From Leptotrichia sp. oral taxon 223 (GTDB lineage Bacteria > Fusobacteriota > Fusobacteriia > Fusobacteriales > Leptotrichiaceae): 64,000 bases of DNA. Shown here in pieces: positions 4,960-34,333 of the stretch. Numbering within the stretch: position 1 is the stretch's first letter; each line of letters begins with the position of its first letter. Under the pieces are notes generated by a model. That model did no database searches, had not been told where the DNA came from, and worked only from the letters and a program-made list of their open reading frames with translations. Position numbers and translations under genes: made by a program. The stretch spans positions 62,001-126,000 of the forward strand of contig NZ_JABXYU010000004.1 of the NCBI RefSeq assembly GCF_013394795.1, read 5' to 3'.

Positions 4960-4969
4960 AATTAAAATT

Positions 4970-5062
4970 CTTATCTTTGCACTCAATGCCGGATTTAGCA
5001 CCTTGTTTTTACAGGTTGCTGGATACTCAAACGGGCCGTTCCCTAGTATCTCTCTTGATAAG
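4970..5062 (-). ncRNA. SAM-I (S-box) riboswitch aptamer controlling metK
   Basis: Read on the minus strand from 5062, the sequence shows the S-box order. The P1 5' strand CTTATC is followed by the conserved AAGAGAG, then CGGCCCG, a CAGCAACC stretch, AAGGTGCTAAATCC, and finally GCAAAGATAAG closing P1 at 4970. These match the SAM-I class core. The aptamer is followed directly by a strong terminator hairpin, so control is by transcription termination when SAM is plentiful. The target is metK. Confidence 0.93.
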
Positions 5063-5122
5063 TTTTATTAAATTGTAGTATAATTTTTAAATTTGATTTT
5101 CAAATAACTTTATTGTAAAACA

Positions 5123-29311: not shown

Positions 29312-29340
29312 TTTACAAAATACATTTTTTGTGATATAGT
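29312..29340 (+). promoter_or_regulatory. trp operon promoter
   Basis: TTTACA (29312-29317) and TATAGT (29335-29340) are 17 bases apart. The start of transcription would be near 29347, 38 bases before the leader peptide ATG. No TrpR-type operator was recognised. Confidence 0.6.
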
Positions 29341-29375
29341 GTTTGTAAATTAATAATAAAATAAAATTTTAAGGA

Positions 29376-29470
29376 GTGATTACAATGATTAGACAAACTT
29401 GGACATGGTGGAAAAAATTAAATACAATTTAATATTTTTTGCCAGCTATGTTGAAATTTATTGTAATTAC
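29376..29470 (+). promoter_or_regulatory. Alternative pairings in the trp leader RNA
   Basis: The Trp-codon stretch ACATGGTGG can pair with CCAGCTATGT (29442-29451) with a one-base bulge, acting as strands 1 and 2. The region around the leader start (GTGATTACAAT, 29376-29386) is complementary to ATTGTAATTAC (29460-29470) with one G-U, forming an outer helix that would cover the leader start. CCA and ATG of strand 2 can also pair with CATTGG of the terminator arm, giving a plausible antiterminator. Confidence 0.5.
29385..29432 (+). CDS. trpL: trp leader peptide
   Basis: Fifteen codons: M-I-R-Q-T-W-T-W-W-K-K-L-N-T-I, with three Trp codons at positions 6, 8 and 9 and a TAA stop. AAGGAG lies nine bases before the ATG. 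A terminator hairpin begins 58 bases after the stop and trpE starts about 210 bases after it. This is the layout of ribosome-mediated attenuation. When charged tRNA-Trp is scarce the ribosome would stall on the Trp codons and favour readthrough. Confidence 0.9.
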   Translation: MIRQTWTWWKKLNTI

Positions 29471-29489
29471 TATTATTAAATATTGTGAG

Positions 29490-29526
29490 AAAAGCATTGG
29501 TGAAACAGAATCAATGCTTTTATTTT
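29490..29526 (+). terminator. trp attenuator terminator 1
   Basis: A 10-base stem, AAAAGCATTG (29490-29499) with CAATGCTTTT (29512-29521), a 12-base loop and a T-rich tail TATTTTAT. It precedes trpE, so it must be conditional. Confidence 0.8.
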
Positions 29527-29530
29527 ATAC

Positions 29531-29570
29531 AATTCTCTTAGTCGGTAAAACGATTTAAGGGAATTTTTTT
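29531..29570 (+). terminator. Second terminator hairpin in the trp leader
   Basis: AATTCTCTTA (29531-29540) pairs with TAAGGGAATT (29556-29565) with one G-U, followed by an unbroken T-run of seven. It lies between the first attenuator and trpE. Its tail is stronger than that of terminator 1. Confidence 0.75.
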
Positions 29571-29640
29571 ATAAATTTCAACTAAAAAAGAAAAAAATAC
29601 TAAAAAGAAAAATACAATAATATAGAAAGTGAGATATTTT

Positions 29641-30966
29641 ATGTTAACAAATAAACCTACTTATTACTACTCTATTATCAGAAAAAAATTTAGCAATTCC
29701 TATTTTGCTGAAGATGAAAGGCAAGTTATTATTGGGATTGACTGTGAATATTTTGATTCTAATGAATACAGTTATGACTCATTAAGAAAAATATACAATT
29801 CGTTTGTAAAACAGAAAAGACTTTCCACTTTTGCAGGACTTTTTGGGACATTTACTTATGAGTCGATACATTTTTTTGAAAAAATTGAAAAAATTGAAAA
29901 AGAGCAATTTAAATTTCCACAGTTTATTTTTGCTAATGCAAAGGCATATTTACACTATTCAAAGACTAGCAAAGAATTTTCTTTTTATGGAGATGAAGAA
30001 AAATATTTTAATTTTTTAAATGATGAAATTTCTGAAAAAATTAATGATTCTGATTTATTTTATGATACAAAAACAGATTTTGAAGAGGAAAAATTACATT
30101 ATTATGAAATTATTGAAAAAGCAAAGGAATATATTAAGTCTGGAGATATTTTTCAAGTTGTGCTAAGCGAGCAGTTAAAACTTACGTCAAATATGGATTC
30201 TCTTGATTTTTATGAAAAATTGTCAAAGGCAAATCCGAGTCCGTATATGTACCATTTTCCTACAAAATATGGGGACATTGTTGGATCAAGTCCTGAAATA
30301 CTAGTTGATATTTCGTCTGATAATATTTATATTGCTCCTATCGCTGGAACTCGTCCGAGAGGAAAAGATGCCAACGAAGACGCATTTTTAGCAAACGATT
30401 TATTAAATGATGAAAAGGAATGTGCTGAACATAGGATGCTTGTTGACTTGGCTAGAAATGATATTGGAAAATTTGCAGAAAATGGCTCAGTTGTTGTAAA
30501 AAATCTTATGCATATTAAGAATTATGAACATGTAATGCACATCGTAACTGATGTTTACGGGAAAAAGCGAAAAGATGTGTCGATATTTGAAGTTATTGCT
30601 CAGGCTCTTCCAGCAGGAACGCTTTCTGGGTCGCCAAAAATTCGTGCTATGCAAATCATTTCAGAACTGGAAAAATTTAAAAGAAATGTTTATGCTGGTG
30701 GAATTGGATTTTTGAGATTTAATGGAGATGTTCAGCTTGCGATTATTATTCGTACTGCATTTTTTGAAAATAAAAATTACGACTTAAATGAAGTTGATGA
30801 GATTCGGAATGTATTTATTCAGGCTGGAGCAGGAATTGTCTTTGATTCTGTGAAAGAAAAGGAATATGAGGAAATTTACCATAAGAGGGCTTCTGTGCTA
30901 AACATTTTTAAAAAATTCTGTAATGAAGAAAAAAATAAAAATGAAAATAGAAAGGATGTAAAATAA
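29641..30966 (+). CDS. trpE: Anthranilate synthase component I
   Basis: About 441 residues, a little shorter than many TrpE proteins. It makes anthranilate from chorismate with ammonia supplied by the TrpG domain. Chorismate-binding motifs: GDIFQVVLSEQL, NPSPYMYHF, GSSPE, PIAGTRPRG, DLLNDEKECAEHRMLVDLARN and SGSPKIRAM. A feedback-type N-terminal region is present. The ATG at 29641 is preceded by AAAGTGAG; a GTG twelve bases earlier is open. First structural gene of the operon, behind the attenuator. Confidence 0.96.
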   Translation: MLTNKPTYYYSIIRKKFSNSYFAEDERQVIIGIDCEYFDSNEYSYDSLRKIYNSFVKQKRLSTFAGLFGTFTYESIHFFEKIEKIEKEQFKFPQFIFANAKAYLHYSKTSKEFSFYGDEEKYFNFLNDEISEKINDSDLFYDTKTDFEEEKLHYYEIIEKAKEYIKSGDIFQVVLSEQLKLTSNMDSLDFYEKLSKANPSPYMYHFPTKYGDIVGSSPEILVDISSDNIYIAPIAGTRPRGKDANEDAFLANDLLNDEKECAEHRMLVDLARNDIGKFAENGSVVVKNLMHIKNYEHVMHIVTDVYGKKRKDVSIFEVIAQALPAGTLSGSPKIRAMQIISELEKFKRNVYAGGIGFLRFNGDVQLAIIIRTAFFENKNYDLNEVDEIRNVFIQAGAGIVFDSVKEKEYEEIYHKRASVLNIFKKFCNEEKNKNENRKDVK

Positions 30967-32736: not shown

Positions 32737-33948
32737 ATGATAGAAAGAAAAATTTATTTTGAAAAAATTAAGCCCTTTATAGATAAAGATATTATCAAAG
32801 TTTTGACAGGAATTAGGAGAAGCGGTAAATCTGTAATGTTAAAATTGATTATGAAAGAATTGAAAAAAAACGGTGTTGACGAAAATCAATTTATTTATAT
32901 CAATTTTGAAAATTTAAGAAATAGACATCTTTGCTATGCAGATACATTGAATGAATATATATTGGAAAAAGCAGAAAATACTCAAGAAAAATGCTATTTA
33001 TTTTTGGATGAAATTCAGGAAGTAAAAGAATGGGAAAAGTGTATAAATTCATTAAGAACAGAGGATAAGCAATTTGATATTTATATAACAGGTTCCAATG
33101 CTAAACTATTATCGGGAGAACTTGCAACTTACCTTGCAGGAAGATATATTGAAGTTGAAATTTATCCTTTTTCATTTAAAGAGTTTTGTTCAATATACCA
33201 AAATATAAATCAAAATATTTCAAAAGAAGAAATGTTTGAAAAGTATGTCAAACTAGGTGGAATGCCATTTTTACATAATTTAAATTATGAAGCGGAATCA
33301 AGCATGCAATATTTAAAAGATATATATTCATCAATAATATTAAAAGATATTACTCAAAGAAACAATATAAGAAATACTGAATTATTAGAGCAAATCATCA
33401 ATTACATTGTAATGAACATTGGGAATACATTTTCTGCAAATTCAATTTCAAAATATTTCAAAAGCGAAAATAGAAAAGTTGCAGTAGATACTGTGCTAAA
33501 TTACATAAAAGCCTGTGAAAACGCATTTCTGATTCACAAAGTCCCTCGTTATGAAATACAAGGTAAAGAAGTTCTAAATGTGAGTGAAAAATATTATATT
33601 GCAGACCATGGAATAAGAGAAGCAATTTTGGAAACAAACGAAAGAGATATAAATCAAATTTTTGAAAATATTGTATACATGGAATTATTGCGAAAAGGCT
33701 ATAACATAAAAATCGGAAAATTGAATAATTTAGAAATAGATTTTGTCTGTACAAAAACAAATAATGAAAAAATTTATATTCAGGTAGCATATTTACTTGC
33801 CTCTGAAGACACTATAAAAAGGGAATTTTTACCATTTGAAAAAATTAATGATAATTATCCCAAATATGTAATTTCTATGGACAGGTTTGATATGTCAAGA
33901 AACGGGATAAAACATTTGAATATTATTGATTTTTTATTGAAAGACTAA
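32737..33948 (+). CDS. AAA-type ATPase with DUF4143 domain
   Basis: A 403-residue protein. Walker A GIRRSGKS (25-32), Walker B YLFLDEIQE (about 84-92) and an ITGSNAKLLSGELATYLAGR sensor stretch define the AAA_14 type. The C-terminal half (about 195-400) fits DUF4143, a winged-helix and nuclease-like region with EIDFVCTKTNNEKIYIQVAY. Such proteins are scattered singly in bacterial genomes, with no known function. It has its own AGAGGTG site and a 123-base spacer upstream. It interrupts the trp genes between trpGD and trpC and has no known link to tryptophan. Confidence 0.85.
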   Translation: MIERKIYFEKIKPFIDKDIIKVLTGIRRSGKSVMLKLIMKELKKNGVDENQFIYINFENLRNRHLCYADTLNEYILEKAENTQEKCYLFLDEIQEVKEWEKCINSLRTEDKQFDIYITGSNAKLLSGELATYLAGRYIEVEIYPFSFKEFCSIYQNINQNISKEEMFEKYVKLGGMPFLHNLNYEAESSMQYLKDIYSSIILKDITQRNNIRNTELLEQIINYIVMNIGNTFSANSISKYFKSENRKVAVDTVLNYIKACENAFLIHKVPRYEIQGKEVLNVSEKYYIADHGIREAILETNERDINQIFENIVYMELLRKGYNIKIGKLNNLEIDFVCTKTNNEKIYIQVAYLLASEDTIKREFLPFEKINDNYPKYVISMDRFDMSRNGIKHLNIIDFLLKD

Positions 33949-34000: not shown

Positions 34001-34333
34001 ATGATAAAAACTTTATATAGGGAACATTGTTTAAGATATTTTATAGTACCTGACATAATATTGCTTTTATTAGTTACAATTTTTTTCTACCCTATGTTAG
34101 AATTTTTATATTTTTTTGTTATTGGAAATATTCCTTTAATTTATATTTTGTTTAAAATAATAGCAATGTATTTAAGTTCGATAAAATTAAACAAAATAAA
34201 TAAAGTTAAAGATGAAGAAAAAAGAAAAAAATCTAAAAATAAATTAAAATTAGTAATTTTTTTAGTAAATTTAATAATATTTAGTATCTATGTCAGTTTA
34301 GTAAAAAATGAAATTTTCATACCAAATATTTAA
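34001..34333 (+). CDS. Uncharacterised small membrane protein inside the trp operon
   Basis: A 110-residue protein with three hydrophobic segments (around residues 14-33, 35-55 and 83-103) and a Lys-rich loop (KDEEKRKKSKNKLK). Not recognised. The ribosome site is weak (GGGGAAAG, too far from the ATG). It ends 16 bases before the trpC start and accompanies the AAA/DUF4143 ATPase gene, so both may have arrived as one insert. Confidence 0.5.
   Translation: MIKTLYREHCLRYFIVPDIILLLLVTIFFYPMLEFLYFFVIGNIPLIYILFKIIAMYLSSIKLNKINKVKDEEKRKKSKNKLKLVIFLVNLIIFSIYVSLVKNEIFIPNI

Follow-up and report, generated by a model that had tools for sequence, protein, structure and literature searches.

The region upstream of trpE in Leptotrichia sp. 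oral taxon 223 raises the question of how a leader with a Trp-rich peptide and two intrinsic terminators in succession might control the trp genes, and whether both terminators respond to tryptophan. The best-known cases of amino-acid operons attenuated through a leader peptide come from Proteobacteria and Actinobacteria. According to the available part of a 2010 survey (PMC2965389), no case had been shown outside those groups before the survey's own cases in Firmicutes; in the open-access literature searched, no leader-peptide attenuator described for Fusobacteriota was found. The window, to which all coordinates refer, is the whole stretch of DNA analysed (64,000 nucleotides). Its leader begins with the following elements, up to the first structural gene:

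29312-29340, + strand: likely leader promoter, TTTACA - 17 nt - TATAGT with extended TG (10/12 in a consensus scan)
29371-29376, + strand: Shine-Dalgarno sequence (SD) AAGGAG of the leader peptide, read from the sequence (relatives have a GGAG-type SD at similar spacing)
29385-29432, + strand: leader peptide MIRQTWTWWKKLNTI, with ATG at 29385-29387, stop codon TAA at 29430-29432 and Trp at codons 6, 8 and 9
29641-30966, + strand: trpE (anthranilate synthase component I), with Pfam PF00425 and PF04715 and the N-terminus MLTNKP from the ATG at 29641, which relatives share

Sequence comparison located the TTTACA...TATA(G/C)T promoter arrangement at the same place in the leaders of relatives. The sequence bears out the 15-codon peptide described in an earlier note on this DNA, with Trp codons at 29400, 29406 and 29409; the start given there, 29376, lies at the SD and not at the ATG (29385). 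The trpE gene is the first of a trpE-GD-C-F-B-A cluster downstream of the leader, in which the first genes were named by Pfam and trpB and trpA from their own sequences. Between trpGD and trpC the cluster is interrupted by an AAA_14/DUF4143 ATPase gene (32737-33948) and by a small ORF with no Pfam match (34001-34333). Two stem-loops stand between the leader peptide and trpE:

29490-29521, + strand: terminator 1 (T1), a 12-bp stem-loop followed by ATTTTATA, from the sequence and terminator calls, its stem with compensatory changes
29531-29565, + strand: terminator 2 (T2), a 14-bp stem with a bulge followed by TTTTTATA, from the sequence and the fold series described below

Both hairpins had been noticed previously, as had the stronger T-run of the second, and the U-tract of T2 is indeed the better one. 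Folding of 29347-29640, a check that the earlier note had proposed, gave -60.4 kcal/mol, far below the -36.8 kcal/mol of dinucleotide shuffles (z -6.15; 0/200 shuffles), and among the 38 terminator-like sites on both strands of the 64-kb window T1 and T2 form the only pair within 25 nt. AT-rich, low-complexity sequence folds easily, and the hairpins might on that account be chance products of such DNA with no regulatory role; against the z score, the compensatory changes across genera and the tie to trp genes, this explanation is hardly credible. T1 and T2 had also been supposed to exclude each other, through pairing of TTCTC in T2 with GAGAA just before T1. This pairing is present here, but of 17 leaders inspected only 4 keep GAGAA, and there are close relatives that retain TTCTC without it. 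The predicted fold of 29347-29640 holds both hairpins at once, so that they are not mutually exclusive; a switch of this kind is very improbable and was rejected.

Upstream of T1, the fold without a ribosome places two further helices, P0 and P1, one inside the other:

29375-29388, + strand: 5' arm of P0 (SD end and leader start codon), pairing with 29458-29471, from the fold and pair counts
29458-29471, + strand: 3' arm of P0, partner of the leader start region, from the fold and pair counts
29407-29413, + strand: 5' arm of P1 (Trp codons, GGUGGAA), whose core pairs with 29437-29443, from the alignment fold and pair counts

In this structure P0 encloses P1, and part of the SD and the AUG are hidden. 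The complementarity of the leader start to 29460-29470, which had been suggested to mask the start codon, is real and extends over 29375-29388 with 29458-29471; the helix is kept in most lineages. Since P0 closes the start site once 29458-29471 has been made, leader translation would have to begin early. On the alignment, 81% of cells are paired over the 14 pairs of P0, two of which show two-sided changes, and 93% are paired in P1. For P0, P1 and T1 together the value is 87.6%, compared with 46.7-63.2% when the structure is slid along the alignment, and 20 cells carry two-sided changes versus 7.6 in shuffles (0/500 reach 20), a count that the inclusion of related sequences inflates. RNAalifold on the full alignment recovered P1 and T1 only, missing T2 and P0 because these two are hard to align in DNA so rich in AT; the P0 pairs were then counted separately, using the P0 columns. 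Of the lineages examined, only that of leader L014 is not predicted to form the P0/P1 double hairpin; P0 is absent there from the minimum-energy fold.

A covariance model built from 15 leaders and searched against 33 genomes of the family Leptotrichiaceae returned one strong match per genome in 20 (E 2e-19 to 1.5e-38), 19 of them before trpE and one immediately before trpB. Leader matches in the remaining 13 genomes, all without a trpE match, were weak (E of 0.05 or worse); TrpE itself was matched in 12 of the 13 genomes of the genus and in 19 of the 33 of the family. Conservation of the Trp codons and stems in relatives, on which the earlier note had made its proposal depend, is evident: W-x-W-W or WWW stands at codons 6-9, and T1 and T2 lie 7-14 nt apart, in all 20 leaders. 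No similarity to the leader was found in phages. The leader directly before trpB (L087) belongs to a genome of the same genus without a trpE match, which appears from its sequence to have lost the upstream trp genes and kept the leader. An ABC-transporter-binding-protein-like gene lies between leader and trpE in L023. In two species, one of them L. hongkongensis (L003 and L004/L021), about 1 kb of non-conserved DNA separates trpE from a leader with both terminators intact; a readthrough transcript, if any, would there carry a very long 5' region. In genome G008 (L012, L013) the TrpE match consists of two pieces with several stops, possibly a pseudogene, and the leader looks intact. In Fusobacteriaceae, trpE leaders of WW/WWW type but dissimilar sequence carry a terminator pair in four genera and a single terminator in two. 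Taken as sequence patterns, these distributions suggest that the whole family Leptotrichiaceae and several Fusobacteriaceae genera use leader-peptide attenuation for trp.

The strand that would connect the leader peptide to the terminators follows the stop codon:

29437-29455, + strand: segment 2, the putative shared antiterminator strand, UUUUGCCAGCUA..., modelled to pair with P1, with T1 at 29493-29505 and with T2 at 29533-29550

In the models, segment 2 pairs with P1 when no ribosome is present, and with T1 and then T2 when a ribosome is taken to be stalled. Its first target would be the GGUGAAA loop and arm of T1, its second the UAGUCGGUAAAA arm and loop of T2. The strand reads GCCA in Leptotrichia and CACCA, CACCG or ACCAAA in other lineages, and is complementary to GGUGA, CGGUG or UUUGGU in T1, with a matched change (CACCG:CGGUG) in L016. 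When complete leaders with ribosome footprints were folded at equilibrium, both terminators had a probability of about 1 in almost all states. Equilibrium folding thus cannot discriminate between the states. It was replaced by a fold series over transcripts of intermediate length, with E. coli trpL as calibration, in which the RNA under the stalled ribosome was removed, the 3' end was lengthened stepwise and expected pairs were counted. With the ribosome on the Trp codons, 7-13 expected pairs formed between segment 2 and T1 in most lineages and lasted until the 3' arm of T1 had emerged by about 6-8 nt; values were low in the L017 and g9 lineages. With no ribosome, the pairs of segment 2 with T1 and with T2 were about zero in nearly every lineage. 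The same calculation for E. coli trpL gave 11.5 pairs of 2:3 in the stalled state versus 0.8 without a ribosome, and the terminator again won once complete. Because full-length terminators are thermodynamically favoured over the antiterminators, antitermination would have to be kinetic, as in the E. coli control. Shuffles of T1 alone were not significant (Fisher p 0.086), a modest support explained by the GGUGA motif being conserved rather than covarying.

By the features tested, the leader works like, and as read from its sequence and models belongs to, the ribosome-mediated trp attenuators. Upstream of the trp genes lies a short ORF with clustered Trp codons, as in relatives before trpE or trpB; intrinsic terminators stand between this ORF and the first gene, all leaders of the family having both T1 and T2; and P1 provides a 1:2 hairpin over the Trp codons, with segment 2:T1 as the predicted 2:3 antiterminator, for which the evidence is the conserved motif and the modelling, the shuffles being not significant. 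Rfam yielded no credible family match to the leader even at E up to 5, nor any to Trp_leader (RF00513) at that limit, and no Rfam T-box match in the window. A TRAP array (about 11 spaced (G/U)AG repeats) was not found either, 29347-29570 containing, by reading, only a few GAG/UAG triplets. On sequence and modelling, a trp attenuator of the leader-peptide type in Fusobacteriota is very likely.

Whether T2 takes part in this control was approached through its complementarity to segment 2. In the stalled state of the fold series, segment 2, together with the nucleotides just 3' of it, formed 12-17 expected pairs with the T2 loop and 5' arm in most lineages; in the present leader the predicted helix joins UUUUGCC-A-GCUA (29437-29448) to UAGU-C-GGUAAAA (29539-29550). 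The trpB leader described above behaved like the others. Shuffling the T2 arm gave p 1.8e-4, and shuffling segment 2 gave p 6e-6 for T2 pairing (Fisher, seven lineages in both cases). When T2 arms were swapped between seven lineages, the observed sum was reached in 0.08% of permutations (p 0.0008), in agreement with duplex energies (p 0.0012 for the swap); the complementarity is lineage-specific. The pairing peaked over the 20 nt starting at segment 2, exceeded shuffles in 8/8 lineages and amounted to 6.0 and 4.9 per 10 nt versus 2.1 and 1.5 when shuffled (2.8 and 3.4 times). It was weak in L017 and marginal in L009 and L016. The best duplex of the T2 left arm in several lineages was with the SD region of the leader; this candidate was mostly no better than shuffles and was rejected. 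With the ribosome at the stop codon, both pairings of segment 2 were cut about twofold in Leptotrichia and fell near zero in L014 and the Fusobacteriaceae leaders; the T2 pairing was left intact in clade L011/L013. In Fusobacteriaceae, leaders of the genera g19, g20 and g24 show this logic too, although their sequences are unrelated (T2 p 0.06-0.10 each), one example being a CAGGU strand that pairs with CCUG of T1 and with CCUG of T2; the same calculation did not find segment-2:T2 pairing in genus g25. Because the segment 2 window was set after exploration and the family comprises only about seven independent lineages, the conditionality of T2 is held as probable and not as proven, and two serial conditional terminators with one shared antiterminator strand are, on sequence and models, the probable arrangement.

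The most serious competitor is an ordinary single-step attenuator, in which T1 alone is conditional; T2 would act constitutively, as a fail-safe or as a partial terminator, or would be a 5' stem protecting the readthrough mRNA. It would account for T2 looking the stronger terminator, with the better U-tract, and forming at equilibrium in nearly all modelled states; some Fusobacteriaceae genera manage with one terminator, and T2 may have arisen as a copy of T1, its complementarity to segment 2 then being a remnant of that origin. A constitutive T2, however, would cut induced and repressed expression equally, yet it is kept in 20/20 leaders of the family; its arms are a better fit to segment 2 from the same lineage than to segment 2 from other lineages, and the 64-kb window contains no second tandem terminator pair. 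We consider this alternative unlikely, though not negligible. A leader reading two signals, with T1 sensing tryptophan and T2 something else, such as access to the leader start (the 3' arm of P0 being freed) or overall translation, would fit the T2 pairing of L014, L018 and L020, part of which falls in or near the 3' arm of P0, and the fact that this arm, in a largely conserved helix, is free only when the leader start is occupied. T2 pairing is nevertheless centred on segment 2, the T1 antiterminator, in 8/8 lineages, and two signals are improbable. The earlier proposal of a two-step tryptophan switch is thus retained as to ribosome mediation and two terminators that, in the models, are apparently both conditional. 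Its two steps would not be two signals: in place of TTCTC:GAGAA, relatives keep the complementarity of the 5' arms and loops of both terminators to 29437-29455, so that 'two-step' would mean one signal acting at two successive terminators. On sequence and modelling together, the likely reading is that ribosomes mediate trp attenuation here at two terminators in series, for which a single strand serves as antiterminator.

Under this shared-strand reading, the SD/start region (P0) and the Trp codons (P1) would pair with 29437-29471 in the absence of a ribosome, and T1 and T2 would fold. When tryptophan is plentiful, the ribosome would reach the stop codon and cover 29437-29455, or P0 and P1, able to re-form upon its release from the stop codon, would retake that strand; transcription would end at T1, or else at T2. 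A shortage of charged tRNA-Trp would stall the ribosome on codons 6-9, opening P1 and freeing 29437-29455, which would pair with the emerging loop and upper 5' arm of T1 and let the polymerase pass. T1, being more stable, would then refold behind the polymerase and release the strand, which would next pair with T2 on its 5' arm and loop (UUUUGCC-GCUA to UAGU-GGUAAAA), T1 being predicted in minimum-energy structures as a hairpin inside the loop enclosed by this pairing; the polymerase would pass T2 and reach trpE. Given the order of segment 2, T1 and T2 in the RNA, segment 2 cannot hold both terminators at once, and sequential pairing, T1 then T2, is the simplest reading of the models. We infer that termination really takes place at both sites, that events follow this order and that the leader responds to tryptophan. 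A wider claim is put forward tentatively, as quite possible: that across Fusobacteriota this is a new architecture in which a ribosome-gated strand would be handed from T1 to T2 within one round of transcription, released by the refolding of T1, giving a tryptophan response steeper or tighter than with one terminator.

The ermK leader has two terminators. Among known systems, E. coli trpL (Rfam RF00513) is similar in its Trp-codon ORF, 1:2 hairpin, 2:3 antiterminator, 3:4 terminator and modelled behaviour; it has one terminator, whereas the present leader has a second, a further partner for segment 2 in the models, and keeps its start codon within an outer helix. The actinobacterial trp attenuators (PMC1262725), a case outside Proteobacteria, likewise have a leader peptide with two or three Trp codons in a row and hairpins that form alternatively, but in the part of that source available they consist of a terminator and an antiterminator hairpin in GC-rich triples, and tandem terminators are not mentioned. 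Two translation-controlled attenuation events in one leader are described in the consulted portion of a report on Salmonella mgtCBR (PMC3641672); there they depend on two leader ORFs, whereas here one ORF and one strand would serve two adjacent terminators. Reading of the sequence showed a single Trp-rich leader ORF and no other leader ORF in the interval from T1 to T2, and an mgtCBR-type tandem attenuator was rejected on that count. The rimP-leader of some Gammaproteobacteria likewise has tandem terminators, the upstream one with a clear potential antiterminator, but its sequences and gene are unrelated and the accessible text mentions no leader peptide (PMC2965389). In ermK, mef/mel and bmrCD, too, a ribosome that stalls within the leader ORF tips the balance from an intrinsic terminator towards an antiterminator (PMC5418344, PMC4191407), but that stalling is antibiotic-induced and not due to Trp codons, and the available parts of these sources describe one terminator. 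The open-access literature searched yielded no leader-peptide attenuator with two adjacent terminators disarmed by a single strand. The leader thus poses a physical question, namely whether one nascent RNA strand can disarm two terminators in succession and thereby give a sharper switch; the 20 natural leader variants make it easy to design compensatory mutants for a laboratory host.

Two further regulatory elements were observed. A trpE-like gene of Fusobacteriaceae genome G067 is preceded by a leader (L070) that, from its sequence, is T-box-like (GGGTGGCA motif) and also has two terminator-like hairpins. Elsewhere in the window, a SAM riboswitch lies at 4968-5064 on the - strand (Rfam RF00162, 51.8 bits, above the gathering score).
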